64,000 nt of DNA from Saxidomus purpurata (Eukaryota > Mollusca > Bivalvia > Venerida > Veneridae): assembly GCA_022818135.1 (NCBI GenBank), contig JAFMSR010000002.1, forward strand, positions 45,211,699 through 45,275,698, written 5' to 3'. Positions within the stretch are counted from its first letter, which is position 1, and the number at the start of each line of letters is the position of its first letter. This document shows, piece after piece, positions 40,401-64,000 of this stretch. Position numbers and translations under genes: made by a program. The notes under the pieces were generated by a model. The model made no database searches and was not told the origin of the DNA. It worked only from the letters and a program-made list of their open reading frames with translations.

Positions 40401-40830
40401 ATGGTAAGTCTGTCTTCAAGTTGGCTATGCCAAGCAGGCTTCCTAGGTTAGGCACAAATTTAATATCTTGGTAACAGGTTTTAAACTGAGATATACCCAG
40501 TAGGCTGTCCAATATATTAATTTTCCAGTATCTTAGTGTTTTGAAGAGAGAAAGCAAGTGGTTGAGATAATATATATAATAGTCAAATGGCAAGATAATT
40601 TAATTGTTGCAGAAACTAAAGCATTTATGCCATTTGAATACTCCTGTTAGGACAGTTTTAGGCAAATCGTTTTTAACAAAAGTTTCACATTAACCAGTAG
40701 GATAATTTAGAGGACTGTTTGGGCCAATCATTTTTGACCAAAATTTCTGTGAAGACAAAATCTAGGTTAAGATAAATTTCCTTTAAGTACCATTTCGGCC
40801 AATCATTTTTGACAAAAATTTCTGTTAAGC

Positions 40831-41062
40831 TGCAAGTTTAACAAAGGTTTCACATTAACAAAAGTTTCACATTAACCAGTAAGATCATTTAGAGGACTGT
40901 TTGGGCCAATCATATTTGACAAAAATTTCTGTGAAGACAAAACCTAGGTTAAGATATAATAGTCAAATGGCAAGATAATTTAATTGTTGCAGAAACTAAA
41001 GCATTTATGCTATTTGAATACTCCTGTTAGGACCATTTTAGGCAAATCATTTTTAACAAGTT
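40831..41062. repeat. Rearranged partial unit in the array
   Basis: The marker TTCACATTAAC appears three times within 220 bases, followed by a jump from AACCTAGGTTAAGAT to ATAATAGTCAAATGGCAAGA, normally more than 1 kb away in the unit. This records unequal exchange or a deletion leaving about 378 bp of a unit. Confidence 0.8.
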
Positions 41063-44000: not shown

Positions 44001-45632
44001 AAAAAGGATATAATATGTGCTTTGAAGGAGTTATACCTTCTAAAAAGATGTTTAAAAGTAGGCATTTTATGTAAGTGTACTTGGAACAGTTCCTATTATT
44101 TCAATATCAGTTCAGAATTTTATGCCTTTCATTTGTACAATGTAGTCAGTAACTATAGGTCTTAACACTAATTTGTGACTAAATGGGTTTCCTGCTTAAT
44201 GTTTGTTAAATATTTTGACATGCTCAACACAAATGGTAAAGCCTTTTCATCCCCTTCATTTGATTGTAAGGATTGTTCCTGCAACTTATTTTTGATAAAA
44301 ACTTCTCATAGGGTATAAGGTTCATTTTAAGGGACTGTTCTGACTCATTGTTTTTGACAAAGACTTCTTGTAGTTTAGAAAAGTCATAATAAGACCAAGT
44401 TATTTTTGCAAAAAGATCCTGTAAGGAACATAATTCATTTTAAGGACAGTTTATTTCAATCATTTTCAACAAAATCATACTATGTAACCAGTAAATGCTT
44501 TTGTGTACATGAGCCTTAGTTGGCCTTTGGTTTCTCATCATTGAAAATTATTCATCTTCAACTTTGATTAGCAACAAAATTTGAACATGTTAATATTTTG
44601 TTTGTGCCTTTTTGTACAAATATTAGAAAATCTAAAACTAGCAAGCTTTTTGGGTTAGGCACAAGTTAAGTGCCTTAGAGAAAGATAGCTAGTGGTTAGC
44701 ATCTTATAAACTGTGTGCACAAAAATAGTGGATGGTTTTTTAGGTCAGTCAGTGTACAAATGTTTTGATCTTTTGTAAATTTTTTAAAAAATGTAGAGAT
44801 ATTTATTTGTAGGTCTGTAATCTCGATCCTTGCTTTTGCTAATTTTTGTTTGTCATCCCCTGAATACTCCATCTGAATGTGCTTTATGGTAAGTCTGTCT
44901 TCAAGCTGGCTATGCCAAGCAGGCTTCCTAGGTTAGGCACAAATTTAATATCTTCGTAACAGGTTTTTAACTGAGATATACCAAGTAGGCTGTCCAATAT
45001 ATTAATTTTCCAGTATCTTAGTGTTTTGAAAGCAAGTGGTTGAGATTATATATATAATAGTCAAATGGCAAGATAATTTAATTGTTGCAGAAACTAAAGC
45101 ATTTATGCCATTTGAATACTCCTGTTAGGAGAGTTTTAGGCAAATCATTTTAAACAAAAGTTTCACATTAACCAGTAGGATCATTTAGAGGACTGTTTGG
45201 GCCAATCATTTTTGACAAAAAATTCTGTGAAGACAAAACCTAGGTTAAGATAAATTTCCTTTAAGTACCATTTCGGCCAATCATTTTTGACAAAAATTTC
45301 TGTTAAGCTGCAAGTTTATTTCATTATAAGGACTGACCTAAAAATTGATTAACAAAGTGTTTTCATAAAAAAAGGATATAATATGTGCTTTGAAGGAGTT
45401 ATACCTTCTAAAAAGATGTTTAAAAGTAGGCATTTTATGTAAGTGTACTTGGAACAGTTCCTATTATTTCAATATCAGTTCAGAATTTTATGCCTTTCAT
45501 TTGTACAATGTAGTCAGTAACTATAGGTCTTAACACTAATTTGTGATTAAATGGGTTTCCTGCTTAATGTTTGTTAAATATTTTGACATGCTCAACACAA
45601 ATGGTAAAGCCTTTTCATCCCCTTCATTTGAT

Positions 45633-45636
45633 TGTA
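45633..45636. other. Left target-site duplication TGTA
   Basis: TGTA precedes the 16.6-kb element and is repeated at 62257-62260. The uninterrupted array units have a single TGTA in TTGATTGTAAGGATTG. Confidence 0.88.
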
Positions 45637-45976
45637 AAGGCCTTCCAGAATAAAAAAGGAAATTCCATTTGTCCTTTTTCCGGGGGTACATTGAAAACCA
45701 AAGGCAACAGTACTTGGTCAGAGAAAGAGGAATATTCCTCTTTCTTTAGCACATAGAGTAACATTCCCCTATCTTTCACACATAGAGTAACATTCCTCTA
45801 TCTTTCTCATCTGATACATTTTTCTAACATAGAGGAATATTCCTCTTTCTTTCTTGTCTGATATATTTTTCTAACATAGAGGAACATTCCTCTATCTTTC
45901 TTGTCAGTTATACTTTTCTAACATAGAGGAACATTCCTCTATGTTTGTTTCAGATATATTTTTCTAACATAGAGGA
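45637..45976 (+). repeat. Left terminal inverted repeat with palindrome array
   Basis: The outer 83 bp are identical to the right end. Then come about seven copies of a unit of about 48 bp, TTTTTCTAACATAGAGGAAC ATTCCTCTATCTTTCT, with palindromic core AGAGGAAYATTCCTCT (variants TAACATTCCTCT). Such arrays often serve as transposase binding sites (inference). Confidence 0.9.
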
Positions 45977-47580
45977 ACTCATGAATGCTAAATTAAAGTG
46001 TTTTCTTAATGTTTTCAATATAGCACATAGCCATTAGAAATAAGTTCTGTGTAAGTGGTTAATAATTTTTAAAAGACATTTTAATTGTATTTCAAAACTT
46101 TTCAAAATTTATTGAATAGTCAAAATGATATTAAGAATACAAGACTCTGATTGTATATACAACTATTGTAACAGCATTGCTATTGCAAACCAGATAATGG
46201 ATATTACATTATGACCTTTGTTGTATATCATCCTTTTGTACCTAAAAATGAGCCACAGAATATTTTTCTTCACATGTTTATCATGTCAAATAAACCTTCT
46301 ATTTGATTTATTTGTCACTATCTCATATGCTTTATTTTACCATTTTATACATATATGCCAGTTACTTCATATCAAAGACCTATATGTCAGACCAGATATG
46401 AATTCAGTGGAAGAAAACATTTGTGACACTGGTGACCAGTGTTTTAAACAATATAAAAAACTATATGAAAAATCTAAGAGGAAAACCAAGCTGTTCTCAA
46501 AGTAGAGTTTGTATGATTTTTGTTGTTGTTGCAAGATATTTGTGCAACTTGCCCCATAAAAGAAAATTCCTCTAGTGTGTGTTATTACAGATCCTTTGTC
46601 ACATATTTGATCACAACATTAAAAGTTATTTTCATTTGTGTTGATTATCCTAGAATTATGGGTCTTTTGGTTTGGTCTTCTAGACTTTTGGTTTGGTCTT
46701 CTGTTTCCTATTCTTAGATGTCACTAAAATCTGCAATAAAACCAAACAAAAAGTAGTTAGATATTTTACTAGATAAATACTTTACTTTATACGACTTTTC
46801 TATTTGAAATACCATCACAATACGATTCTGACTACATTTTCCTGTATTCGGCAGTGTGATATATGACCTTGTTTGCTCGAGTGGTTACCTCAAAATGTTA
46901 CAAGATGGGTAGTATTGCACTTGTTGTCAGTGTAAATACATATTTCAAATCACCCTTTCATGTCATGCGACTAAGACTTTACATATTCAACTTGATCAAT
47001 ACAAGCTATCAGAACAATGAAATTATGTAATATACCCCATATATATAATATGGACAAATATCAGTATATTCTGTTGTACTTGGAAATGAAAAATAATACA
47101 CATTATTATATAGCTATAATCGAACCCAAGTGTTCATTGTACTTAGAACCAGCCACATGAGTATATTATACATACCACTTAAAAATATTTAAATCATATA
47201 AGGCAATCTGTAACGATCCTCCAGATATTAACTGAATGTGCACTTTCAGCTCGTCTATCAAAAATACCATGGTGTAGCGTTTAAATATCTTTCAGCCAGT
47301 CCTAGACTATTTTACTTTTTGTTAATTTTTTATTAAAATTACTTTATGCTAGTGATCCAACATTATGATATGCAGAACTAAACTTTATATTGCTTCCTGG
47401 AAAGTTTAATGATAATCCAGCAAAGGGTTTTGGAGAAGACTCACAGACAAGATTTTCTGTTTTCAGGTCTCTGTGACCGTGACCTTGTAACTAGTGACCG
47501 CAAATTATTATACGCACAACTAGACTTCGTGCTTATTCTTCCTGCAAAGTTTTATGATATCAAGCAAGGGGTATAAAAGA
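45977..47580. other. Interior of the element, left 1.6 kb
   Basis: A plus-strand open segment at 46359-46505 follows ATATGCCAG and reads LLHIKDLYVRPDMNSVEENI, CDTGDQCFKQYKKLYEKSKR, KTKLFSK, then stop. It is lysine-rich at the end and looks like a possible terminal exon, but no family is recognised. The rest shows nothing. Confidence 0.35.
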
Positions 47581-47735
47581 AGTTGTCAAGATAAACTTTG
47601 TACTTGAATAGATAGACTGACAAATAGCACAAAGTCAATATTTTCCCACACCACTTCATTGTGGAAGACATGAATATTTGAATGAGGACTGACATAGAAG
47701 ACAATGTCATGTAAATGATCTATTATAAACATTAC

Positions 47736-47990
47736 CTGATGATGATCTAGCTCTTTATGTAGCATTTCTGTCAGATATGGTTTTACTTTATCCTGGACAG
47801 GACTGCTTTCCAATTTTATATAAGCTTTCAATTTGGGCAAGATCCACACTGCTTCATTTGCTGCATAGTCTTAAATGTTTGTTTTGTTAGTTTGAATGTT
47901 GTGTTTTCCATCAATGAAATGCTGCCACCACCAAAATTCGTGCAAATGGTAGTCTCAACATTACTACTGGTAAAGCTGCAAGCTGAAACA
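47736..47990 (-). pseudogene. Possible minus-strand exon of an unknown element gene, frame broken
   Basis: On the minus strand an acceptor-like TTTTATGTTTCAG (about 47980-47995) is followed by an open segment with TSSNVETTICTNFGGGSISL and TFKTMQQMKQ, ending in a stop at about 47828. An overlapping frame continues with WILPKLKAYIKLESSPVQDK and VKPYLTEMLHKELDHHQ to a good donor CATCAG|GTAATG (47735). The two halves read like one protein with a one- or two-base frameshift near 47850. Read from 48034 the first frame also begins like a signal peptide (MKNIFFIISWSFVFYVSA), which may be chance. No family recognised. Confidence 0.35.
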
Positions 47991-48039
47991 TAAAACACGA
48001 AACTCCAGGATATGATGAAGAAAATATTTTTCATGCATG

Positions 48040-51000
48040 AAGAGCATTCTGGTCATTAATTTGACATTGTAATGCTTTGTCCACGGTAGGATATATGTAT
48101 TTTGGAAAAACATTATACAGTAAGTTCACATTAATTTTTGTGACAAAGCTATTGAGTTTTGTGACAAACGAAGCTGGCACGTTCGGGTGCTCTACTGTTT
48201 TATAAACATTTACTGTCTGGTGTATTTGATTAACCCATACATGACTTATTAATACATGTATGTAAAGTAGAGTTGAGTACCAATTTTGGCAGTTCCGCTT
48301 GAAGTGTATAAATAGATGTTAAGTAAAATATTGCTTACTGAATAACAGTGTAGATCAGACTACAGTCTAATCATGATATGAACTAGTCATACATGCAAAC
48401 TTGCTTGCCATTTGCAGGATAAAAGCTTAGATTTGTAATAAATTTTGTATTAAAACATGAGTAAATTTTTAAATACTTACAAAACATACTGTTTTGTTAC
48501 AAGCAGAGACTTATGCTTCCTGTACCTCATGTAAAATGTTTGGACAGCTTAGTATGACTTATCAGTTATCACTAGCTACGGCTTATCAGTAATGCCATCA
48601 TGGATAATTAATGTGCATGTCTCATAAAACCTGAAAACCTGCTGTCTCACAATAATTGTCTGCCAATTGACCTTATCTTGCACTTGGCACTGACCACATA
48701 TTTTGTTGCACAAAGTAGAGTTTCACTTCTTGTTACTTTGAAATATAAATAATTTTGTAGTTTTTGTTGAAATAGTTTTTTGAATGTTTCTAAAGAATTG
48801 TTTCAAAAAATGTAAATTTTCAATAGGTATAGGTAATCATCATACTTGTATTTTCCTCGCAAACTATGGTACATTGTATATTATTTAGTAATAGAAAACC
48901 TAGTAAATTAATTAGCCAATAATAATACTATAAAACTAAACAATGTTTTTTGCAATACTATAAAGACTGTATAACTAAAACTTACAATGTGTTTCTGATA
49001 AATCAAAGATCGTTTAAAAGACAAATAATCATCATTATTGAATAGAAATACTTTGATGCCCAAAGGAGGTCATATTGTTAAAAGTACCAGAAGCTAGGAC
49101 CTGGCAGCAAGTGACTCTGCCTGTGTGACTATTGCAGATCATGATCACCCCGCACATCCCATCCTCATGCATCAGTGGTTTGCCAACCTTTCAGACAAAC
49201 ATGAACTTATGTAATGAATGCTCTGGATGACGAGAATGGCACATCCGAGCAGTCTAATAATAATTTGCACTGTTTGCTAGAAGAATATATCAAAAGTAAT
49301 CGATTGAGGGAGGACTGTGTTTAGTATGGAAAATATGGTTCAAATTGTATGTGTCCTCTAGGCAGACAGACTGATATCAAATCGATATTGAACAATATGA
49401 AAATTGTAGTTATCACAATAAGTACATATTTTCCATGGCGGTAGAGGAAAAAGAAAGGTTAGGAGACGAGATATGCAGATGTGCGCACTACATTTTACCT
49501 TACCCTTTTCGCATTTCTCATCATTTTTTTTTTTTTTTTTTTTTTTTGAATAAATACCATGGTAACTATACGCATTTCCAAAGTGCCAGGTGAGCACTTT
49601 TTTTTTACAAAAACCCATCCTTCTGTATGTTATTTTATTAATGAAGGACTTGAATGTTAATTAATAGTCGGCATTTGTCACCAATTAAACAACACATTTC
49701 TTACTCTGTACCCACTAATGTAACAAGATATTATTTAAAAATTACTGAATTCTGTTCTTCAATATAAATTATAAAGTATTATAATGTAATTCAAGGATTG
49801 ATGTGATATTGTAGCTGTCATACTTTCCCTGGGGTTTCTTGAATTTCATCCACCTTTAATCTTTCTTTTTTATTTATTCACTATCATTATTGCTATGAAG
49901 TGACTGAGTAGGAGCAGATTTATATAGAAACATCAAACATCAGTGATACACAGTAATTTATGTTCTAAGCTTATTACTTTAGAATTTAGATATACATGTA
50001 GTCCCAGATAGATAAATGATACGCAGGTTATGCATTCTCTGCAAAAGAGGATACAAAATTTAATTACACAAAAAATGTTAAATAAATTGTTTACTTACCA
50101 AATCAGTCTTTGGTTTTTATTCCAACTTTCAAATATGAATTAACCGGTAAACATTACAAAAACAATTCTTATAACTTTCATTACATTTGTAAAAGAGTAA
50201 AATGATCCAAATATAAACCACATTCCTGTTAGGTCAGACCAGGGCTTATCAACAATAAAGTCACACCTGTTTTGAGGAAAAGGGAACTCGCATGTAATTA
50301 CTGCAGTTAATCAAACAGGCAACGAGAGTTCATCACCTGCAGTGATTATAGCTGATAAAAATCGGCTGTATCCTTGGTTTTCAGGGGATTTTCTGTAACT
50401 GTTATGGAAGTACATTTTGTATAGAAAAGTAGTGTACACTTCTATGCATAGGAGCTTCCATCTGTTTGACAGATACATATACAAAAGAGATTTAAAGCAT
50501 GCTATTGTAATTTCATGCCTTGCATTAACCTACTGATAAATTCTGGGGAAAATAGAAATCTTCAATGATCAGTAACCATGTAGTGGCCAGTATAGTTATC
50601 AACTCTGCATGTATCCTATCCCAGCTTATCAAATTAATTGGCCATAAAAATAAATAGTGGTCAGCCTCACATCATGGGGGCTAATTAGATTGTAATATAA
50701 TCTGTTATGTGCTCTGTGAGAATAAAATTATAAAGAAAGCAAGAAAAGTTGAGTCAGTTAAGCATTTAATGTGTCTATTATTACTGGTACATGCATAATG
50801 TAATAAACGGTGTTTAAAATATTTATTTATTGTGACTTCTTTTTTTAATGTGTTATACTGCTCATCAGTTTTCTATCATCACTTACAGATGTATTTCTTG
50901 ATGGTTGAAATAATGAAATAAAAAAAGTTCTATTTCATGAATTGGTTTTCTTGTGAGAACAAAGTTTTTTTGCACGATACTTAATAAAATGTAGTTTAAT

Positions 51001-52400
51001 TATTGTTGAAATTCGCAAATCTATCACATTATAGAATAAGTATACAGGAATATCTTGCAACATTTTGTTCAGTGATTTATTCAGTCTAACCCGTGTCTGT
51101 AAAGCAGTGATCCAAGCAACTAAATCAAAGTGACCAAAATAAACAGGTGACCGTTATGCAGGTTTTCAAATTCAGACATAAAGCATTCAGAAATCCCAAC
51201 CGAATTTATAATAACTTATTAAAATAACTCTAATAATACTATATCACATATAAGACACATTTAATAAAAGTATATTTTTTAAGGTGATACAAATACGTCA
51301 TTCATACTGTTTGGTAACTGCCAAGTAAAGGTGACTCTGTCTGCTAGCCGCATTAGACAGATCACACTATATACAAGTGACTGTTAAAATATATGTATGA
51401 AAAATATACTTCATGTTTCTGTTTGCAAGTCTTAAAAAAGAATATAAAGAATTCAGGTGAAGAATAATTAAACAAACCAGAGATAATTCACAAACAGTTA
51501 TCACAGTAGGTTATGAAAATATCAAATGTCAAGCTTACTATGCAATCCTGAATATCAGTACTAAACCTTTTATTTGTACATGCAAATTATATCGAGCTAC
51601 TTCGAAATGAAAATATACACACACATTGAGTGAATTCTCAATTTTTTGAAGATAGTCAACAATGTTTTTCATGGTGTAACACTATGTATAAGTTAGAGTT
51701 TATTAAGTCATATTTTAAAAATTAAGAAACCCAATAATCTACTGGTACATGTAACTACATTGCCCGATTTTTTAAAGTTCTTCAACAAAATAATTTAAAA
51801 CATAATTTACAAAAATCATACTCACATTTTTTGTTTATTTGGTAGAACCCCATCACCTCGGAAGTGTGCTCCCCACAATTCTTTTCACCTCATTTTGTGG
51901 TGATGGGGAGAGTTAACCACCCATGTAAAAGTTAAACACTGTAGTGTTTGATTTAAAAATCAATATCTAATGTGGAGATAATTACATGTATCTGTATTAT
52001 GCGGGTACAAACATGACGTTATCCTGAATTCTTAAACATTTTATAAATTACAATATTCTACATTATACGTGAGTGAAACTCAATTATAACACGATTAGCA
52101 CATTATCTAACACAAGCTATATAATTATCATATTAAATAAGGTGTCTTGTGTTCACCAGAAATCAATATCAGGTTAATACTTACCATTATAAATGTGCCA
52201 TAAAACACAATTCATTCATTTATTGATACAATGTAACCCATTTTTTCATTCTTTTATGTACATGTGTTAATAAATGCATACACTTACATGATGTTTCACT
52301 ATTCATTGTTCATTTTAGCTAATTAAAAAAAAACTTGAAAAGTTCGTGATATCGATATGCCGGTAAATAACACTGTCACACAGTGCTCTTTCTTTGTTTA
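48040..52400. other. Element interior without recognised features
   Basis: AT-rich, with a run of about 22 T at 49526-49547. A 10-bp inverted repeat CCCCATCACC...GGTGATGGGG at 51848-51910 is the only structure noticed. Short open frames have no resemblance to known families. Confidence 0.45.
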
Positions 52401-52619
52401 TAAAGCTGTGTCGAGGTAAATTTCGCTTTAGTTAAAAACCCACTTATTCAAAATCAAGAATATTAGAATCGCTAAAATAAAATCAGGACCAAAATCTTGA
52501 AATTTGAATGTACGCGAAAAAGAAAATATAATACAGTATTTCCTCAAATCATAGTCTTCTGTAAGGATATCATTTACAAGTAATATGCCAGAGAGAAACA
52601 TTCTTCCATATCTGATCGG

Positions 52620-52720
52620 CATTTCCGGTGATTTTGCCCATGCCGGAAAAACTGGTCTAGCACCCCTCCTACGCAGACGACTCTCGTAATGTTATAAACA
52701 TTGTGACGTCACTTTCTTAA
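52620..52720. promoter_or_regulatory. Promoter-like patch inside the element
   Basis: Within very AT-rich DNA this patch is richer in G+C and CpG. It has TTTCCGG at about 52622 and CCGGAA at 52643 (ETS-type sites in opposite orientations), and a full palindromic CRE, TGACGTCA, at 52704-52711. That is typical of CpG-containing TATA-less promoters, but no transcript or start site can be seen. Confidence 0.35.
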
Positions 52721-53287
52721 ACACAACGTCGGAAAATCGTTTGTTTTTCATGATAATTCATCATTTTGATAAGTTTGCTGTTAGAAATCTACTTTAAATT
52801 TCAAAACGGCATGCAAGAAACTTGGCTCAGATGGAAATATCGGTCACCACGGGTAACTATTTTGCGGGAAGTCGGCAGAGCCTCGTTCCCGCCAAAACAG
52901 TTACCTTCGGTGACGGATATTTGGATTTGAACCTCCTGCTCATGACATAAACTATTAATCCTCTGAAAATTGAATTGAAATTTTAAAATGTAACTTGTAG
53001 CTGCATGCTCTTGTTCACAGTTTCTGGTGTCATTGTAAATCATCAAAACTATATACATGTATATGAACATGTTTAAAAAATAAAGTGTAAAACTAAATGC
53101 TAGAATCAACAACATAATTGAAAATCAGTATAGCAATTTGAGAAAATCTGCAAAAAATGTTGGTGAGTAAAAGTAGTTTGACAGAACCGCTACACTATAT
53201 ATCTATATAAGGATATCAAAACAAACGATTTACAGTAGACGAAACGTAACAGTTAACTACACAATAAGCGATTCAGAATGATACACA

Positions 53288-53969
53288 ATATCTCGACTAT
53301 TCGGAGAATATGGAGAGCTATTACAGTCACTTGTGCGTCGGCGTCGGCGTTGCAGCTTTGCTTAAAGTTTTGCATGCTAGGTACTATCATGCACACATCT
53401 CAGTAACCACTTATGATATTGACTTGAAACTTTGTTAATGTCTTTAGGGGTGTCACACAGTCAAGTCAGATAACTCTTGTATAAATGAAGTATAAATTAT
53501 GGCCCTTGTTTGACTTTGAAAATTTGGTTAAAGTTTTGCATGCTAGGTACTATTATGCACATATCTCACTAACCACTTATGATATTGACTTGAAACTTCG
53601 TTAATGTCTTTAGGGGTGTCACACAGTCAAGATGGATAACTCAATTTAGTGCAAATTATGGCCCTTGTTTGACTTTGAAAATTTGGTTAAAGTTTTGCAT
53701 GCAAGGTACTATCATGCACATATCTCAGTAACCACTTATGGTAGTTATATCAAACTTAGCAATAGTGTTCAGGGGTACATTTTGTATCAAACAATTAATT
53801 TACCAAAAATTAAATATATAGTGATAGATTTTGACTTTTTTATGATTCAACTTTCCTAGTTTATACTTAAGAGTCAGCAGAATTTTGTTTTGCTATTATA
53901 CTGTTAAAGTTTTGTTTTATTAGCAAGCACCCACAATAGTCTAATTTGCTGTCTTATGGACAGCTCTTG
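53288..53969 (+). mobile_element. Helitron-like element H2
   Basis: Begins TATCTCGACTATTCGGAGAA, with three core units (TCAGTAACCACTTATGATAT) and the 3' end CAATAGTCTAATTTGCTGTC TTATGGACAGCTCTTG, where CTGTC-TTATG-GACAG is a perfect terminal hairpin. Shorter than the copy at 16453 because it has fewer core units. Confidence 0.82.
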
Positions 53970-54022
53970 TATAGTTTACCTGGCACAAGGTACAAGAGTC
54001 AGCTATTAGGAGCTATATATTG
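53970..54022 (+). mobile_element. H3 5'-end fragment
   Basis: TAGTTTACCTGGCACAAGGT ACAAGAGTCAGCTATTAGGA matches the H3 start with substitutions, directly abutting the H2 3' end. Confidence 0.5.
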
Positions 54023-54465
54023 CTGTTCGTATTTGTTACTTATTATTATTGAATATTTACTAAAGTATAAAAACACTTTCAAACAATATTTGATTATTCA
54101 CACATGATACTGGGTTTGGCAGACTGATTTGTGTATGCAAACGTATGAAAAGTCAGGTGAAGAGTCATCTTTAACTATACATGTATATATCACACTTTCA
54201 GGATTGTTATCTTACCAGCATGATGTCCCATTAAAAGTCGTGGCAAGTGAATAATATCTGATAAGCCAAGAAACAATGCAATATTATGCATCTGTGCTTT
54301 CATGTAGTCCTAGTTTTATAAACTGTTGATAAAAACAAACAAATAATGCCATTTATTAAACAAGAGGCCCAAGAAGCATTGCAAAACTAGTTCAAACGAG
54401 TTTTGTGAAAAAATTGACCTGTAGTGTTAAAAAAAGTTTCACAATAATTTGATACTTATTTTTTA

Positions 54466-54493
54466 TTCATTATTATTGTTATTAGTATTGTTA

Positions 54494-54527
<34 letters not shown>

Positions 54528-54612
54528 CACTTTTATTATTATCATTATTACTATTATAACTCTTGTTGTTGTCATTGTCATCATCATCACCATCATCATC
54601 ATTATTATTATA
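54466..54612. repeat. ATT/ATC trinucleotide microsatellite
   Basis: ATT units running into GTT, then ATC/ACC units. On the minus strand it produces Asn/Asp homopolymer frames that are not coding. Confidence 0.9.
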
Positions 54613-55940
54613 CTGTGAGGTCATGATTTGAATGAGATAATATAATGTTAATATGTGATGAGTTTTGATATTACTAAAACCACTAATTTTTCCTTTTAAA
54701 AAATGAAGTCGTTTTCCTGTTCTTGTAAACTTTTTGATAAATGCATGTGTATCAGGTAAAATACCATAGAACATTTTACAACAAGGAAATAATGAGCTGA
54801 TTTGATCATTCTCACATCCCTTCACCAATTTATGAGTAACACAAGATTATAGCTGTCACTGAGTAATTTGTTATAAGATAATATCACTAAACACCTGACA
54901 CTTGGGTTATTATCTCTAATTTGCCTGGCATGTGGTATTCTAAATGTTCTGCATGGTGGTACATTTTGTAATTATAATTATGTCTATGAACTGCTTTCCC
55001 TCCTTGAAATTATTTTATCACTCTTTTACAGGTCATCTTTAAATTGGATTGGGCACATCATTACCAAATTAATTTTGTCAGATGTAACTAGAATTGGAAC
55101 AAGTGCACAGATACTTTGCCCAAAAGAAATTAAAGGCTCAAATAATATACAACATACATCTTTATATCATATTAATTTTACTGCATCTATTTAATTATAC
55201 AATTCACTTAGTTGTTTGCATAGATTAATTAGGAAATCTCAGGAATGTCAACTGCCACTTTTACACAATGTACTGCCTTCATCAAGTTTTTAGTTTTTCA
55301 TCAAATTGCAGCACATTTTTTTAAGCCCTAGAAAGTGATATACTTAATGCTGCTGCATAGTTCTGAAACAATATTGCCGCTAATGGTCTATACTATTACA
55401 ATAATTTGCTATATTCAGTGCAAATACATTATGAGCCATAGCCATTTCGTTCAAAGCAATCTACTATTTTCTTGCTTCTTGTCGTGTTTTCACTGGTTTT
55501 AGCATGTAAGAACATGTCATGGGTTCGTTAGTGTTTTGTCGAATTAGGCATAGTTTATGTGTGAATTAGGCACAGTTTAACATTAGTAGCATGCTGGGAT
55601 AGGTATTGTCAGAAATTTGAATCGCGATAAATTACAATACAACGCAAAACTGTATTGCGATATGTATTGCAATATATTGAGAGTGAGTAACTCTTACAAA
55701 AATATATTTTTTAAGTTTTCATACTTGGTAATAATATGGTTATAAAGTAATTGAAACATTCCTGTGACAGAAAAGTCACTAATGTTTATTTGTTTACTTC
55801 TTTAGTTTTGAGATCGAATAATATGCCGCCCGTTATTACGATATCTAGTGTCCGTCATTGTCGTCACGGAAAAAGCACACAACTTATTCAAATTCAAGTT
55901 TCAGCTAATGAATGAAGGCGAAATTGCAGTTTTTATTTAC
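54613..55940. other. Element interior, nothing recognised
   Basis: No coding block, tandem repeat or terminal repeat detected. Confidence 0.45.
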
Positions 55941-55942
55941 AC

Positions 55943-56930
55943 AACAAGAGGGCCAAGATGACTCTGTATCGCTCACCTTAGTACAAGTCCACTTGCCTGG
56001 TGTGTGTGGTCAATATTGACCCAAGAGGCATAATTTGAACAAAGTAGGATGAAGACCACTAGACAATGTTATATACCAAAAAGGTTTTCCTATATAAGCC
56101 TATGTAAAACAAGTGAACCCCCGGTGGACCAATACTGACCCAAGGGGCATAATTTGATCAAACTTTGAAGAGGTGTACTAGGCAATGCTACAAGTCAAAT
56201 ATCTATATAACCTCTAGACATTGTGGTTTCAGAGAAGAAGATTTTAAAAGTTTTTCCTATATAAGCCTATGTAAAACTAAGTGACCCCCTGAGCGGGGTC
56301 AGTTTTGACCTGAGGTCATAATTTGAACAATCTTGGTAGAAATCCACTAGACAATGCTACATACAAAATTTCTAAGCTGTAGGCCTTGTGGTTTCAGAGA
56401 AGAAAATGTTTTAATTTTTTCTATATAATTAAGCTTATGTAAGACTAAGCGACCCCCGGGCGGGGTCAATTTTGATCCGGGGTCATAATTTGAACAATCT
56501 TGATAGAGGTTTACTAGACAATGCTACATGCTAAATATCTAAGCTCTATGTAGGCCTTGTGGTTTCAGAGAAGAAGATTTTTAAAGTTTTCCCTATATAC
56601 GCCTATGTAAAACTAAGTGACCCCCGAATGGGGTCAATTTTAATCTGGGGGTCATAATTTGATCAATCTTGGTAGAGGTCTACTAGGCAATCCTACATGC
56701 CAACTATCTAAGCTATAGGCAATGTGGTTTCAGAGAAATAAATTTTTAAAGTTTTTCCTATTTTTTGCAATAGCAACCAAAGTTCTGAATAGAATGGAAT
56801 GTTTTGAACAATTTGGTAGCTTCATGCAAGGAACATCCCTGCAAAGTTTCATCAACATAGGCCCAGTGGTTTCAGAGGAGATGTTATTTGAATAAAAAAG
56901 TTGACGGACGACGGACAATCATTCATTAGA
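55943..56930 (-). mobile_element. Helitron-like element H3, reverse orientation
   Basis: In plus sense it opens with ACAAGAGGGCCAAGATGACT CTGTATCGCTCACC (the reversed 3' end). It then has core units with TATATAAGCCTATGTAAAAC and TTGTGGTTTCAGAGAAGAAG, AGCTTCATGCAAGGAACATC, and finishes at the 5' region with TTGACGGACGACGGACAATC. The extreme 5' end is missing. Confidence 0.8.
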
Positions 56931-57962
56931 AATAACGCGGTACGGGGTGACATCATAACGTGAAATGCGATATACAGGCTGAGTATACCGGTTTTATTAC
57001 GCAACCCTAGTAGCATGTTTGTTTATAAGTTTCATTTTAGTTCTTTCCTGGTAGCATCAGTTTTGGACTATGATTGTATGAAACTGATTTAAAATCCAAA
57101 TCAAATACAACACTAACAAACGGACTACACACGGCAGTCACATGATAGATTGGTGTTTTACATTGCCAGACTTGTTTTACAGGCACTTGTTCTTATTAAA
57201 TACCCTGTTCCATTTCTGTTTTATCAAGACATCCTGCTTTCAATATGAACTCTCCCTTTTATAATGTGAATGGAAGTTTAATTTGCGTAAATGTATAGGG
57301 AAAATATTACCCCTTACCCTATTGATGGCAAATGATCCATGTAGTCTGATCATGATCTGCACTGTTCTTAGTCGGTCAATAGACTTTTACTTAGGACATC
57401 TAGCTTTGAACAATTAATGGTACTGTTCAAATTAAAAGATAGGCAAGTCTATTTTAGAAAATTAGCAATGCACTAATTTAAACTGCAACTGTCACCAATA
57501 ATAGTTACACTAGGTGATGCCATGATAGCACTGAAACCAGACGGAATTCAAAAGTAAGTCCCAAAAAATGTATTTTCTTTTCTGGGTGGACTCTAGCAAC
57601 AAGTTATGGGCGTTACAGAAGCTTGTGGACGGAATCTGGCACTTAGAAATTTTTGTGAGGCGTAATTATTGTCTTAGATTCTGGAAGTCGGTGGAATTCA
57701 GTGTGAGGTGGAAAATGGAACTTAGACACAAAGCAGTTTTGATGAGTTTCCAAGTATTTCATAAAAATCAGAAATAACAGGTGTATATTCAATGCAACTA
57801 AGATTACATGTCTGAATAAGATGGTACAAAACTATTCAATTTAATTTTTTCATCGTTGAATTTTAGATATAAGACTGTTATTAAACTTAGAAATTTTCCT
57901 GTTCTGTTTTAATCATAATTTGGGACTTAGAAAAAATTAACTTTGTTGTTGACTTAGTTGTA

Positions 57963-58094
57963 CATTCAAACCTGTGTCAAAGACCACCTCCAAACAAAGA
58001 CCAACCTTCGAATAACGACCAGTTTGGGGGGAACCATGCATTATTCAATGTTATGTAGACACCTGTGAATAAAGACCAATAAAAGGTTTGACTG
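57963..58094. mobile_element. Short pogo/Tigger-like MITE
   Basis: CATTCAAACCTGTGTCAAAG at the left pairs imperfectly with CCAATAAAAGGTTTGACTG at the right, with TA before it and TT after. Internal AAGACCACC and AAAGACCAAC motifs repeat. Confidence 0.5.
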
Positions 58095-58424
58095 TTAACA
58101 GTTTCAAAACTTATATAAATCAGAGTGAAATCTTAAAATGCTATAATATAATTTGACAATGCTTCAGAATAATATTTGGAAAATTGTGTACTGCCAACTT
58201 GAAAAAAAAAAAACATTGAAAAACAGTAACAGGTAACAAAAGTTGTGATATAATCATGCATTTCAAAATACAAAATTAAATACAAGTCATGTACTTCCAA
58301 ACTATTACAATTTTCTTTGTTCCTTTTACAATTGATAATTCAGTATAATCAGGACATGAGATTGGGGGAACCACATCATTAGTATAAGCATAATTTATTG
58401 CTATCAATTTCACAGGGTCATTAA

Positions 58425-58658
58425 TTAATTAGTCCCAACGTTGTGAAGCTCAGAGGCTTACCAGAGAGTGATTTTCAGCAGAAAGTACCCTTGTATAACA
58501 TAGTGTATACATTTCACAGACAGATAATCAGGAGGCGGGGTCATTCAGCGAACTTGATCATAAAAAAAATAGCATGCAAAGATAACACTCAACATCCTTC
58601 TCTGTACACCACCTGGAATCTCAATGAAGCAGGATTTATAAGCAAGGGGTCATTTTGA
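58425..58658 (+). CDS. Possible exon of an unknown element gene
   Basis: After TTAATTAG the plus strand is open for about 75 codons: SPNVVKLRGLPESDFQQKVP, LYNIVYTFHRQIIRRRGHSA, NLIIKKIACKDNTQHPSLYT, TWNLNEAGFISKGSF, then TGA. The composition (basic patch IIRRRGH, aromatic spacing) looks protein-like compared with shadow frames nearby. No family recognised. Boundaries are uncertain: a stop precedes at 58422-58424 and a better acceptor CACAG ends at 58415. Confidence 0.35.
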   Translation, partial: LISPNVVKLRGLPESDFQQKVPLYNIVYTFHRQIIRRRGHSANLIIKKIACKDNTQHPSLYTTWNLNEAGFISKGSF

Positions 58659-59136
58659 TTTGTTGATTCGAATGTAAGAGAGTATGTGTTTGTAAGAAAT
58701 GTTTACATGTGAAAGGAATACTTTCAGTTTTGTGAACTTTGTGCTGAGCAGGACAGTATCATTTGCATAAAAATGATTATTAATCTAAATATAAAATGAT
58801 GGTGCGAACTTAGGATTTGATAAATTAGCTTATGCTGTGCGGCAAAGGTATAATATTTTATTCATGTACTCTATGTATATTTTCTAGATTAGCAATTATT
58901 GAAGCTTTTAAGTAATATGTTTTCATTAAATAAAACCATAATTATTATACTAGAGATATAATATAATACACTGTAATATTGCAGTTTATATACATTTTTT
59001 GATGACTTAGATACTAAACAAAACTCATAATCTTTGAAATAATATGAAACTTTTGCCAGTAAACTTGATGACATTTTCACTCCCAGTGGGGATACTTGTG
59101 ACCTAATGTTGTAACCGCATGTATGGTCTTCTTCAG

Positions 59137-59251
59137 ACCAGGTTTCACCAAGCAGGAGCCTATATTCATGAGGGGGACTGGAAAAGGTAGACCAAAACCT
59201 GGAGATGAAAGCAAACCAGTCTTGGACCAGGACAGGCTTGTAGTATTATAA
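59137..59251 (+). CDS. Possible exon of an unknown element gene
   Basis: After GTATGGTCTTCTTCAG the frame reads PGFTKQEPIFMRGTGKGRPK, PGDESKPVLDQDRLVVL, TAA (59249-59251). A possible internal donor GAAAAG|GTAGAC occurs at about 59186. GKGRPKP resembles an AT-hook core, a weak hint of DNA binding. No family recognised. Confidence 0.35.
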
Positions 59252-59827
59252 TAAGAGGTATATAGTCTTCACCTTACTTTGAGTATAAACATTGATAACT
59301 ACAATTATTCATTCATAAGTTACAAAATAGTTGCTAATACAGGTATCAACAGTGTTTACTGGATTCTTCGACTAGAATAACCATAATAAGACTAAGTAGA
59401 AAAAAGTGTTTCAACATATTAAAGGTCCACTACTAAGCGAAAATTAATTGACAGTTATTTGAATGGCAAGTACATTACCTTATGCAAGACACTAAATAAT
59501 GAAGATTGGCACGTTGGAATTTACAGAAAGTGTTTGGAACACAAAGAAAAGTATGTGTATTATGTTGAAATCTCAGTAAATCGACAAAAAGACTACCCAG
59601 GTCTTTTTAATTTTCTTCATAATGCATAGAAAAATAATTGTACATGTACTGTGATTTATTTAGAATTTCTACATCCCAACTTTCATTTTTTATTTAAACT
59701 AACTTATTTCTGTGCTTTGTAAAGTATATTAAAATTTTCGCTTTCCTTAGTATTGGACCTTTAAAGGCAGTGTTTGTTTGCATTATGCATTTTCTTAGTA
59801 GAAACAAGTTTTTAATTGTTTTTTCAG

Positions 59828-59954
59828 AACATATGTTCAGCTGGGCTTGGAGACTGACCTTAATCATGCAGTTACAGAGCGAAAGCAACTGAAAAAACTT
59901 AAATGTGGAGATCAGATCTGTCATGTCTGTGTGGGAGTACAGGAAAATCTATAA
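59828..59954 (+). CDS. Possible terminal exon with Cys/His cluster
   Basis: After a strong acceptor (TTAATTGTTTTTTCAG) one frame reads TYVQLGLETDLNHAVTERKQ, LKKLKCGDQICHVCVGVQEN, L, TAA. C..x4..CHVC could be part of a zinc-binding knuckle. AATAAA follows at 59972-59977, 18 bases after the stop, as expected for a terminal exon with a short 3' UTR. Together with 58425 and 59137 it may belong to one plus-strand gene of the element. No family recognised. Confidence 0.45.
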
Positions 59955-59971
59955 GTAATTTTTTGCACAAT

Positions 59972-59977
59972 AATAAA
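59972..59977 (+). terminator. Candidate polyadenylation signal
   Basis: AATAAA in CACAATAATAAAGGACAGGC, just downstream of the possible terminal exon at 59828-59954. Confidence 0.45.
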
Positions 59978-60132
59978 GGACAGGCATTTTCCTTTTTAAA
60001 GCTATGTCTGCATTATATCTCTTGGGTGCAGTTTTGTACAGTGTGACTGAGCATTCTTTTTAATATTTGGTCATTTGAGGTACCTCAATTTGATGTAAAT
60101 ATGGAAGTTTCGTCATTTATATATTAATAATT

Positions 60133-60290
60133 CATTTATGAAATAAAAGCCGTTCCAGCGGTGTTCATCGTTTAATAAACAATGATTTGGAGTACTGATA
60201 CGCATTGGTTAATAACTGCCCATCAGTACAATAAATTATTGTTTATTAAACGATAAAAACGCTGAAAAGGATGTTATTTCGATTCTAACA
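60133..60290. mobile_element. Foldback MITE-like inverted repeat
   Basis: TTCATCGTTTAATAAACAAT on the left pairs with ATTGTTTATTAAACGATAAA on the right; the outer GAAATAAAAGCCGTTCCAGC and GCTGAAAAGGATGTTATTTC also pair imperfectly. The arms of about 50 bp surround a loop of about 50 bases. Confidence 0.7.
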
Positions 60291-60789
60291 TGACCATATA
60301 TTACAAAAGGTGAATAAATGCAAAGCGTTATTTTCTATGCGAACGCTCATTAACGTCATGCGGCGCAATATGTTTACAGCATATCGGTTCCCGCGTTGTT
60401 TATGGTTTAATATAACATAATTTTTCTACTCTTTGTATATAGAGACAAAATCGGGAGTCATGTTACAATAACATATAATACAACTACATGTAGGAATAAA
60501 ATGTTTTCTTTGTTTAATACATGTGTAACATTGTCCAGAAGGTAATTAATACTACGATAATTTTTCCAGGGTTCCCATGATCAACTTTGGGCCTAAAAAG
60601 GAAAAGAGAAATCATCAGCGGAAAGGTAGTATGATTATGCTATTTAAAGAGGTCGTCTATTTTCTAAATGCTCATAAAATAAATATGGAAATCCAGTAAA
60701 ATGTTAACCTGTATATTTATTAAATTATAATCTGTTACAGTATATGTACACATACTTAACTAAAATAATATGTGCCTTAAAATTATAAG

Positions 60790-61056
60790 ATGCACAATGC
60801 TAAAGACTGCTTACGCTTGACGAAGTTTATTGACGTTAGCAGGTTGGTTGGGACAACGCCTCACTTGTCTGTCAAGAATGTCCTAGACCTGCTTGAGTCA
60901 TCGATGAAATTAATCTTATTTGTTGTAAGAAAAATTGCAGTGTCTTTAGCTGATCTCCAACAGAACAATATTCCACCGACAGAAACCAACACTTTAGTCA
61001 ATTATATGCGCCGCCATTTTCTGTTAACCTTTAGCCATAATTTTTGCACTAAATGA
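60790..61056 (+). CDS. Open segment of an unknown element gene
   Basis: Eighty-eight residues from ATG: MHNAKDCLRLTKFIDVSRLV, GTTPHLSVKNVLDLLESSMK, LILFVVRKIAVSLADLQQNN, IPPTETNTLVNYMRRHFLLT and a short tail. It is leucine-rich with plausible amphipathic helices, denser and more balanced than nearby shadow frames. A short open stretch at 60571-60626 (VPMINFGPKKEKRNHQRK, between TTTTTCCAG and a GGAAAG|GTAGTA donor) could be an upstream exon. No family recognised. Confidence 0.35.
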   Translation: MHNAKDCLRLTKFIDVSRLVGTTPHLSVKNVLDLLESSMKLILFVVRKIAVSLADLQQNNIPPTETNTLVNYMRRHFLLTFSHNFCTK

Positions 61057-61241
61057 TGCATCATGGAACACTCTTAAACGCATAAGTAACAATGATTCCC
61101 GGATTTATTTTCATCCAGCTAAGCTGTGTTCAAGCAAACTTAGCAGAAGTTTCTTATTTTGTTTAGTATATGTGTATGTAATTGATGGAATAATTGATAT
61201 TCTGTAATGCATATATAGGTGATAGTTTACACATTTTGCAG

Positions 61242-61563
61242 GAAAAAGTTGATCCGGCTCTCGTTGAATACAACATGGGGGAAAATGTATTACGTCCAGA
61301 TAATAGCAAAAACAGTGATTTACTGCTTCAAACCAATAGGGCAGATAAGAGAGAATACCTTCCTACATCAGCAAACACAACAGTCATTCATACCAAATAT
61401 GAAAGACATTCAGGAATTTGATGAAAAATTCATCATTTGCTATATGATGGGAATTTGTAATGGTATACAAATAGTTGTAGACAAGACATCCATGGGTATG
61501 CCTGACCAATTGTCTGTGATTAAAGATTACATAAACATTTACACAAAACCGATTGAATTGTAA
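61242..61563 (+). CDS. Possible exon with two long overlapping frames
   Basis: The acceptor is ACACATTTTGCAG. One frame (EKVDPALVEYNMGENVLRPD, NSKNSDLLLQTNRADKREYL, PTSANTTVIHTKYERHSGI) stops at 61421. The other continues to 61563 (MKDIQEFDEKFIICYMMGIC, NGIQIVVDKTSMGMPDQLSV, IKDYINIYTKPIEL). A frameshift near 61400 would join the better-looking halves, so this may be a decayed exon. AATAAA occurs at about 61820. No family recognised. Confidence 0.35.
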
Positions 61564-61879
61564 TTCCAGTAAAGTCTAAGTTTCGGCCTTGAGCTACGAC
61601 CTTTTCGTGTTCCTCGATTTGTTCTGTTGTTTTACAATTAGCCAATAGTACATTCACGGCTCAGTGCTTGAAATCGGACTTTTAATACGCACACTTTCGA
61701 TAGATCTAGCCATTTTATTAATTAACATATATAAAAATGTACACACATATATCACTTTTTCAGTTTAAGCTCCATTGAGCACATAAGACTTAGCAAATGA
61801 AAATATGTGTTACCTTTGAAAATAAATATCTTATACATTTTTATTATTTTACTGTTGCCTTCTTGAGTTTTCTTGGTGA

Positions 61880-62256
61880 CGAGATAGAGGAATGTTCCTC
61901 TATGTTAGAAAAATATATCGAACAAGAAAGATAGAGGAATGTTACTCTATGTTAGAAAAATGTATCAGATGAGAAAGATAGAGGAATGTTACTCTATGTC
62001 AGACAAATGTATCAGACAAGATAGAGGAATGTTCCTCTATGTTAGAAAAAATACATAAAATGAGAAAGATAGAGGAATGTTACTCTATGTTAGAAAACTG
62101 TATCAGACAAGAAAGATAGAGGAATGTTACTCTATGTGTGAAAAATAGAGGAATGTTCCTCTTTCTCTGTTAAGACCAAGTACTGTTGCCTTTGGTTTTC
62201 AATGTACCCCCGGAAAAAGGACAAATGGAATTTCCTTTTTTATTCTGGAAGGCCTT
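61880..62256 (-). repeat. Right terminal inverted repeat with palindrome array
   Basis: Mirror of the left end. About eight units of GATAGAGGAATGTTCCTCTA TGTTAGAAAAATGTATCAGA with GTTACTCT variants are followed by the outer 83 bp, identical to the left outer end. Unit number and variant order differ between the two ends, so the arrays evolve by gain and loss while the outer 83 bp are conserved. Confidence 0.9.
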
Positions 62257-64000
62257 TGTAAGGATTGTTCCTGCAACTTATTTTTGATAAAAACTTCTCA
62301 TAGGGTATAAGGTTCATTTTAAGGGACTGTTCTGACTCATTGTTTTTGACAAAGACTTCTTGTAGTTTAGAAAAGTCATAATAAGACCAAGTTATTTTTG
62401 CAAAAAGATCCTGTAAGGAACATAATTCATTTTAAGGACAGTTTATTTCAATCATTTTCAACAAAATCATACTATGTAACCAGTAAATGCTTTTGTGTAC
62501 ATGAGCCTTAGTTGGCCTTTGGTTTCTCATCATTGAAAATTATTCATCTTCAACTTTAATTAGCAACAAAATTTGAACATGTTAATATTTTGTTTGTGCC
62601 TTTTTGTACAAATATTAGAACATCTAAAACTAGCAAGCTTTTTGGGTTAGGCACAAGTTAAGTGCCTTAGAGAAAGATAGCTAGTGGTTAGCATCTTATA
62701 ATCTGTGTGCACAAAAATAGTGGATGGTTTTTAGGTCAGTCAGTGTACAAATGTTTTGATCTTTTGTAAATTTAAAAAAAAAATGTAGAGATATTTTTTT
62801 GTAGGTCTGTAATCTCGATCCTTGCTTTTGCTAATTTTTGTTTGTCATCCCCTGAATACTCCATCTGAATGTGCTTTATGGTAAGTCTGTCTTCAAGTTG
62901 GCTATGCCAAGCAGGCTTCCTAGGTTAGGCACAAATTTAATATCTTGGTAACAGGTTTTAAACTGAGATATACCCAGTAGGCTGTCCAATATATTAATTT
63001 TCCAGTATCTTAGTGTTTTGAATAGAGAAAGCAAGTGGTTGAGATTATATATATAATAGTCAAATGGCAAGATAATTTAATTGTTGCAGAAACTAAAGCA
63101 TTTATGCCATTTGAATACTCCTGTTAGGACAGTTTTAGGCAAATCATTTTTAACAAAAGTTTCACATTAACCAGTAGGATCATTTAGAGGAATGTTTGGG
63201 CCAATCATTTTTGACAAACATTTCTGTGAAGACAAAACCTAGGTTAAGATAAATTTCCTTTAAGTACCATTTCGGCCAATCATTTTTGACAAAAATTTCT
63301 GTTAAGCTGCAAGTTTATTTCATTATAAGGACTGACCTAAAAACTAATTAACAAAGTGTTTTCATAAAAAAAAGGAAATAATATGTGCTTTGAAGGAGTG
63401 ATTCCTTCTAAAAAGATGTTTAAAAGTAGGCATTTTATGTAAGTGTACTTAGAACAGTTCCTATTATTTCAATATCAGTTCAGAATTTTATGCATTTCAT
63501 TTGTACAATGTAGTCAGTAACTATTTCTTAACACTAATTTGTGACTAAATGGGTTTCCTGCTTAATGTTTGTGAAATATTTTTGACATGCTCAACACAAA
63601 TGGTAAAGCCTTTACATCACCTTCATTTGATTGTAAGGATTGTTCCTGCAACTTCTTTTTGACAAAAACTTCTCATAGGGTATAAGGTTCAATTTAAGGG
63701 ACTGTTCTGACTCATTGTTTTTGACAAAGACTTCTTGTAGTTTAGAAAAGTCATAATAAGACCAAGTTATTTTTGCAAAAAGATCCTGTATGGAATATAA
63801 TTCATTTTAAGGACAGTTTATTTCAATCATTTTCAACAAATCATACTATGTAACCAGTAAATGCTTTTGTGTACATGAGCCTTAGTTGGCCTTTGGTTTC
63901 TCATCATTGAAAATTATTCATCTTCAACTTTAATTAGCAACAAAATTTGAACATGTTAATTTTTTTGTGTGCCTTTTTGTACAAATATTAGAAAGTCTAA
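62257..64000. repeat. Tandem array, unit about 1.37 kb (right part, runs off the window)
   Basis: Starts with the duplicated TGTA and continues the unit interrupted at 45636 (GGATTGTTCCTGCAACTTAT). The next marker TTCACATTAACCAG is at 63161. The phrase CTATTTCTTAACACTAATTT here matches the unit at 39661-39690 rather than its neighbours at 42-45 kb, so unit subtypes are interspersed. Confidence 0.93.

Follow-up and report, generated by a model that had tools for sequence, protein, structure and literature searches.

A long segment with identical inverted ends, lying precisely inside one unit of a satellite array, raises the questions of what kind of element it is and how it is moved. The segment, about 16.6 kb in length, was found in a stretch of 64,000 nt from the bivalve Saxidomus purpurata (assembly GCA_022818135.1, contig JAFMSR010000002.1, positions 45,211,699 to 45,275,698 of the forward strand), which is referred to here as the window. 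It very probably belongs to a family of giant cut-and-paste DNA transposons that apparently carry no genes and would be moved in trans by a DDE-type transposase. The analysis was performed on the assembled sequence (1.135 Gb, 4232 contigs). Numbers with the prefix C denote contigs of this assembly, C1-C19 being the 19 long contigs, and the window corresponds to C2:45211699-45275698.

Boundaries of the Element

The left end of the element (nt 45637-45719) and the reverse complement of the right end (nt 62174-62256) are equal at 83/83 positions, and the sequence TGTA is duplicated on either side. After excision of 16,624 bp (the element plus one TGTA), neighbouring units are locally spaced at 1372-1376 bp, compared with 1364-1374 bp elsewhere in the array, save for one spacing of 1749-1752 bp. 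The 120-bp junction formed by joining the two flanks through a single TGTA is identical (120/120) to array units at nt 42841-42960 and 44209-44328, and is a near match to three further units. Since neighbouring units match the joined flanks, the array provides its own empty-site control for the window copy. A first-pass annotation, made from the letters of the window, had placed an element with terminal inverted repeats (TIRs) exactly within a satellite unit and stated that removal of 16,624 bp restores the array period, and both statements are borne out by these results.

Copies across the Genome

The ends of the family are AAGGCCTT, with termini AAGGCC...GGCCTT. A 23-bp tip returned 99 exact matches in the genome (46 forward, 53 reverse) and none for the reversed control, while allowing up to three mismatches gave 121 matches against five for the control. 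When neighbouring exact tips that face inward and lie closer than 40 kb to each other were paired, 37 pairs were obtained, 36 of them spanning 16,620-30,132 bp and one spanning 130 bp; 25 exact tips were left unpaired, several of these on short contigs. Intermediate lengths, above 130 bp and below 16.6 kb, are absent among exact-tip pairs. Of the 36 giant pairs, the shortest is the window copy, and the median of pairs above 1 kb is 18.9 kb. The length that had been remarked upon as unusual is therefore giant indeed, but it is the norm of the family and not peculiar to the window copy. With the addition of C15:18605129 and C391, each having at least one inexact tip, the set of large copies numbers 38. 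Discrete segments bounded by these ends thus occur at dozens of other loci, contrary to the refuting condition named in the first-pass annotation, that no further copy would have them.

The 30.1-kb copy on C25 consists of an element of about 19 kb plus two inserted blocks with retroelement-like frames; these blocks (within C25:940170-970401) hold BEL/Pao-like and DIRS-like frames, as named by eye with no profile run. The 130-bp copy (within C19:3094943-3095372) has only the two tips, is without the 47-bp repeats found next to the tips of the window copy, and has ATAT on both sides. Copies C116 and C124 represent one insertion with identical flanks on two contigs, probably uncollapsed haplotypes. 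For the C124 copy, the possibility that the shared ends enclose a different, unrelated interior was considered and rejected, because this copy is an inverted member of the same family, its long blocks being mostly 94-97% identical to the C7 copy.

Regarding genomic setting, four large copies lie inside 340 kb at C6:12.89-13.23 Mb, on a chromosome-sized contig, which may reflect short-range hopping. The copies on C436 and C1527 are seemingly inside other tandem repeats (146-bp and 166-bp families, judged by eye from 50-bp flanks).

Target-Site Duplications

The window copy does not by itself fix the length of the target-site duplication (TSD), as its site, TTGTAA, reads as a palindrome and is compatible with a TSD of 2, 4 or 6 bp. 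From other copies in the genome the length is clearly 4 bp. All 38 large copies were inspected at both ends, the sample comprising the window copy, C1358, C6:13137826, C13:17522968, C2:53612348, C7:22183642, C124, C8:18997411, C4:39263906 and C25, plus sets of ten and eighteen copies, and a perfect 4-bp TSD was present in 33. As C116 and C124 share flanks, this corresponds to 32 of 37 independent insertions. In the 28 copies for which the length of the shared flank was measured, it was exactly 4 bp in 24, 0 or 1 bp in four, and 6 bp in none.

These measurements bear upon the Mavericks/Polintons, which are of giant size, have inverted ends, and carry genes for a protein-primed polymerase and a retroviral-type integrase. 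A non-autonomous derivative of this group would have the right size (16.6 kb) and inverted ends, and the window site, taken by itself, permits a 6-bp TSD (TTGTAA) with AG...CT ends. The Polinton TSD is given as 6 bp (PMC10045372), as against 4 bp here, and with a 4-bp TSD the termini become AA...TT. In addition, six-frame Pfam searches of the window copy showed no match to a Polinton polymerase or integrase. The Polinton/Maverick assignment was dropped once the other copies had given a 4-bp TSD, and it can be regarded as extremely improbable.

The same data address the question of whether the boundaries arise from false joins or duplicated haplotigs in the assembly. The assembly does seem to hold duplicated sequence, as seen in the flanks of C116 and C124 and in an empty site about 458 kb from its filled counterpart on the same scaffold (C13, see below). 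However, boundaries exact to the base and accompanied by a 4-bp duplication recur at 33 of 38 places, and by this indirect evidence an assembly artefact is a negligible prospect.

Base composition was examined at 33 TSD sites, namely 32 large copies and the 130-bp copy. Of the TSD bases, 112/132 are A/T (85%; p = 8e-7 versus the window composition). The commonest TSDs are ATAT (5) and AAAT (3), and the pattern AWWT accounts for 8/33 compared with a background of 0.049 (p = 1.6e-4), while TTAA occurs once. In 81% of cases the TSD is bordered by Y on its left side or by R on its right. Overall there is a weak, outward-reaching preference for Y-WTAW-R, the symmetry of this profile being imposed by two-strand counting but the Y/R bias not.

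Search for Coding Capacity

Interiors were read for 11 of the 38 large copies, together with 8 kb of a twelfth (C6:0.65M), and the six-frame Pfam search is complete for the window copy only. No transposase was seen in the 11 interiors. The window copy has no stop-free stretch longer than 127 aa, and its six-frame Pfam scan (with X at stops) returned no family below an E value of 0.5. The sole sub-threshold match was to NOA36 (E 0.5, 10.1 bits against a cut-off of 32.6) and overlaps a run of Asn/Asp codons. As a control, the search identified an intact reverse-transcriptase frame taken from another part of the window, which tests the library but not the stop masking. Eighteen translations from three parts of other copies matched no Pfam family, and 8 of nine other copies had no stop-free stretch of at least 150 aa. 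In C25, long frames were found in the two inserted blocks along with one low-complexity frame; C25 was rejected as an autonomous element because its long frames are these nested retroelement frames (by eye) and the low-complexity one.

Comparison between copies also gave no coding signal. The window copy has 188 frames with 35 codons or more, and none behaves as coding when compared with C7 or C4. Seven frame entries keep their frame in C7 or C4 without meeting a stop; four of these lie in the tips or subterminal repeats, and none of the seven shows an excess of silent changes (overall 803 silent and 4411 replacement codons). Substitution periodicity likewise revealed no coding signal, the single window among 192 overlapping windows that reached a chi-square of 12.3 against C4 being taken as chance, and indels with a length that is a multiple of three were not in excess (25/246, 38/322 and 25/164). 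For the copies and parts tested, a coding interior was rejected on the Pfam, frame-scan, substitution-periodicity and frame-conservation results; the first-pass annotation likewise saw no signature proteins in the window copy. Two wider searches, one for diverged relatives using the pattern AAGGCCTTCCAGAATB (control also 0) and the other of viral contigs using a 25-base tip, gave 0 matches.

An alternative is that the family is an autonomous giant transposon, with a transposase that is split into many short exons or is too divergent for Pfam, so that the copies read are decayed or their gene went unrecognised. Detection is said to be hindered by introns and by the poor conservation of transposases (PMC12477816), 26 of the 38 large copies lie outside the set that was read inside, and the uniform giant size, without mid-size pairs, suggests that the interior is important. 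This explanation has to accommodate a window copy with no Pfam match in six frames and the absence of coding conservation in all 188 frames tested against C7 or C4, a test that applies to exons of 35 codons or more, and we consider it unlikely.

Age, Subfamilies and Constraint on the Tips

The 18.5-kb copy on C13 has a precise empty site. Its joined flanks, with a single TAAT, match at 121/121 positions to nt 17999275-17999395 (minus strand) of the same scaffold, and the search returned a second place at 92% over 113 bases. Comparison of the wider flank with the empty site gave 99.8% identity over 977 bp (one mismatch and one gap), beyond which similarity ends. The site, about 458 kb from the filled one, is explained either by the other haplotype having been placed twice or by a duplication that is very recent, and by both readings the C13 insertion is young.

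Among the copies, C15:18605129 and C2:53612348 form a pair that shares 99.4% identity across 19.3 kb. Over aligned blocks only, six copies (window, C1358, C6, C13, C15 and C2; subfamily A) are 96.4-99.4% identical, C8 is 92.3-93.5% identical to them, and C7 and C4 are 84-87% identical to subfamily A and to each other over 10-12 kb, with C124 grouping with C7. The pattern along the element is uneven. In five profiled copies, the 83-bp tips are 96-100% identical to those of the window copy, while identity of the subterminal blocks to the window copy is 90-93% in C7, C124 and C4, 96-97% in C8 and 99-100% in C6. Inside the element, no bin of C7, C124 or C4 exceeds 93%, and some parts cannot be aligned. 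The alignment used for assessing constraint contained eight copies, C8 being misaligned over part of its length. Within single copies, the left and right tips agree at 78-83 of 83 positions in 8/9 copies; the value for C8 is 46, shifted by a deletion.

Conservation of this kind indicates constraint on the tips, as would be produced by selection on a recognition sequence. Because the tips are kept while the interiors diverge, identical ends cannot date an insertion. The first-pass annotation had taken identical ends and a perfect duplication as signs of recent movement, and while the TIRs fail as evidence, the family has moved recently, as seen from the C13 empty site and the pair of copies with 99.4% identity.

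Relationship to Known Transposons

Several described groups can be set aside. Ginger1/Ginger2 and IS481EU are excluded by their reported TGT... termini, which differ from the AAGGCC...GGCCTT of this family, and Kolobok and piggyBac by their reported TTAA-specific TSDs. Academ and Chapaev have TSDs of 3-4 bp and may be compatible, by TSD length alone.

For Sola2, the published description gives 4-bp, A+T-rich TSDs of the form AWWT (ATAT, AAAT, ATTT) and TIRs of 12-21 bp (PMC3627910), and bivalves are reported to carry Sola and Academ elements (PMC10294476). The present family resembles Sola2 in its 4-bp, A+T-rich TSDs, with ATAT and AAAT the commonest, but differs in that 25/33 TSDs are not AWWT and the TIRs are 83 bp long. 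The general Pfam scan of the window copy showed no Sola transposase, although no search aimed at Sola was made. A Sola affinity may thus serve as a lead, not as an assignment of membership.

In size, nested insertions and missing transposase homology, there is a likeness to the giant KDZ, EnSpm and Sola-1 DNA transposons described from Ectocarpus, which are generally more than 10 kb and in some cases more than 30 kb in length (PMC12477816). According to that account, most of the giant families hold nested transposable element insertions, and several have no transposase homology and are presumed to be entirely non-autonomous, yet carry genes. The host is different here, and no genes were found in the parts tested.

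Other comparisons are partial. Miniature inverted-repeat transposable elements (MITEs), described as usually small (PMC10294476), are likewise non-coding, TIR-bounded and moved in trans, whereas only 1/37 exact pairs is short here (130 bp). Large retrotransposon derivatives (LARDs), named in a review (PMC6431247), have a non-coding block between terminal repeats that is moved in trans, as is proposed here, but they use long terminal repeats and reverse transcription in place of inverted ends and a 4-bp TSD, and the analogy is one of life style only. The Galileo/Foldback elements, of which Galileo is placed in the P superfamily (PMC3573991), also have internally repetitive terminal regions; in the present family the repeats lie inside of the 83-bp tips, and the TSD is 4 bp. 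No described family with the same features was found in the literature searched, a comparison that did not include a sequence search of repeat libraries (Repbase, Dfam), and the family is provisionally regarded as new.

Proposed Mechanism of Mobilisation

The 4-bp stagger, fixed tips, A+T-rich preference, clean empty site and lack of detected genes together point to a DDE transposase acting in trans. Such an enzyme, encoded elsewhere, would recognise the approximately 80-bp tip of each end, cut the element out and, by cleavage staggered by 4 bp, insert it into an A+T-rich target that is weakly palindromic, giving rise to the 4-bp duplication. The first-pass annotation had proposed either a new giant DNA transposon family or a large non-autonomous derivative, and the repeated giant pairs, their TSDs and the 11 interiors without a transposase agree with this.

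The subterminal blocks, which the first-pass annotation does not mention, contain six dyads on the left and seven on the right, near-perfect and of the type AGAGGAANNTTCCTCT, and all 13 matches to the dyad pattern in the 64-kb window are confined to these two blocks. Eight other copies have between 4 and 8 detectable dyads per end, with spacings that are mostly 29 or 47 bp or multiples of these. The phased dyads may be bound by the transposase or by a host factor. Judging from the single 130-bp copy, which has a TSD of its own, the tips alone are perhaps sufficient in cis, and the dyad blocks may be helpful but not essential.

The 130-bp copy is also relevant to a composite origin (macro-transposon), whereby two copies of a small element once trapped host DNA and the resulting block then moved as a unit. 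Short tips that are probably sufficient in cis and the host-type tandem repeats within the interior would suit such a history, which is compatible with mobilisation in trans. Each end of the window copy is, however, a single end and not a complete small element, and the block has diversified into subfamilies with 84-87% identity over 10-12 kb, so the process is not ongoing in those copies. A composite origin appears improbable.

Several observations weigh against non-coding giants moved in trans as the complete explanation. Five of the 38 large copies (C8:18.997M, C391, C4:32.0M, C15:42.1M and C6:0.65M) are without a TSD, and the empty-site search for two copies other than that on C13 returned just their own flanks. 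Apart from its tandem-repeat frames, C8 has one open frame of 158 aa. Another, of 209 aa, occurs in C6:0.65M; it matched no Pfam family, and in four relatives (C4, C7, C124 and C25) it is disrupted by stop codons or shifts of frame. The large copies outside the 11 read may include one that codes. No autonomous partner was found; of the 121 places matching the tip with up to three mismatches, 100 were covered. Non-autonomous families usually include many internally deleted copies, and the absence of mid-size exact-tip pairs is not predicted by simple mobilisation in trans.

Since mid-size pairs are lacking among exact tips even though a 130-bp element made of tips was able to insert with a TSD, the interior may matter. 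Giant length itself could then be required, with a non-coding body of about 16-20 kb being kept for a function of its own. The interior might act in cis or as RNA (in replication, in chromatin, or as long or small non-coding RNA), or the route of transposition might favour long DNA. We judge such a requirement unlikely.

Features of the Window

The features of the window copy and its surroundings are listed in Table 1. The limits of the nested short element were set by eye, the computed alignment gap being nt 59426-59760, and the element is missing at the same place in copies C6:13137826, C13:17522968 and C2:53612348. By its TTAA and AG..CT ends it was likened to a Kolobok-type non-autonomous element. 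The satellite array has a unit spacing mostly near 1.37 kb, with one of about 1750 bp.

Table 1. Coordinates of the giant element and associated features in the 64,000-nt window.
Feature	Position (nt)	Strand	Remarks
Whole element, giant TIR transposon copy without detected genes	45637..62256		16,620 bp
Left TIR	45637..45719	+	83 bp, begins AAGGCCTTCCAG
Right TIR	62174..62256	-	83 bp, same sequence as left
Left TSD	45633..45636		TGTA
Right TSD	62257..62260		TGTA
Satellite array left of element	37929..45636	+	Intact target-site copies present
Same satellite array resuming right of element	62257..64000	+	
Left subterminal tandem repeats	45726..45978	+	29- and 47-bp units; 6 dyads of pattern AGAGKAANNTTMCYCT
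Right subterminal tandem repeats	61882..62162 (also delimited as 61882-62147)	-	Mainly 47-bp units; inverted relative to left; 7 dyads
Host-type tandem repeat inside element	53357..53981	+	166-bp period over 53357-53740; 91.6% identical to 16877-17509 outside
Host-type tandem repeat inside element	56081..56910	-	167-bp period; 81.8% identical to 7198-8014 outside, inverted
Nested short element	59423..59760		338 bp; AGGTCC...GGACCT ends, TTAA either side

Outside the element, five ordered open frames at nt 444-20720 (+) match successive parts of Ufd2P_core (PF10408), the ubiquitin elongating factor core, and so this region is a putative UBE4-like gene. Reverse-transcriptase fragments (RVT_1) are present at nt 2823-3533 (-) and 9512-9868 (-).

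Significance

DNA transposons mobilised in trans generally become shorter, and greater length is commonly considered to lower transposition. Against this expectation, the present family comprises dozens of copies, most of them 17-20 kb long, in which no gene was detected, and one copy has an empty site of 99.8% identity. The question of how a transposase moves almost 20 kb of non-coding DNA, and why mid-size deletions are absent, is a testable one. The conserved 80-bp tip, the phased dyads and the natural 130-bp copy provide a small set of parts with which it can be tested, and a copy within satellite DNA has built-in empty sites alongside.

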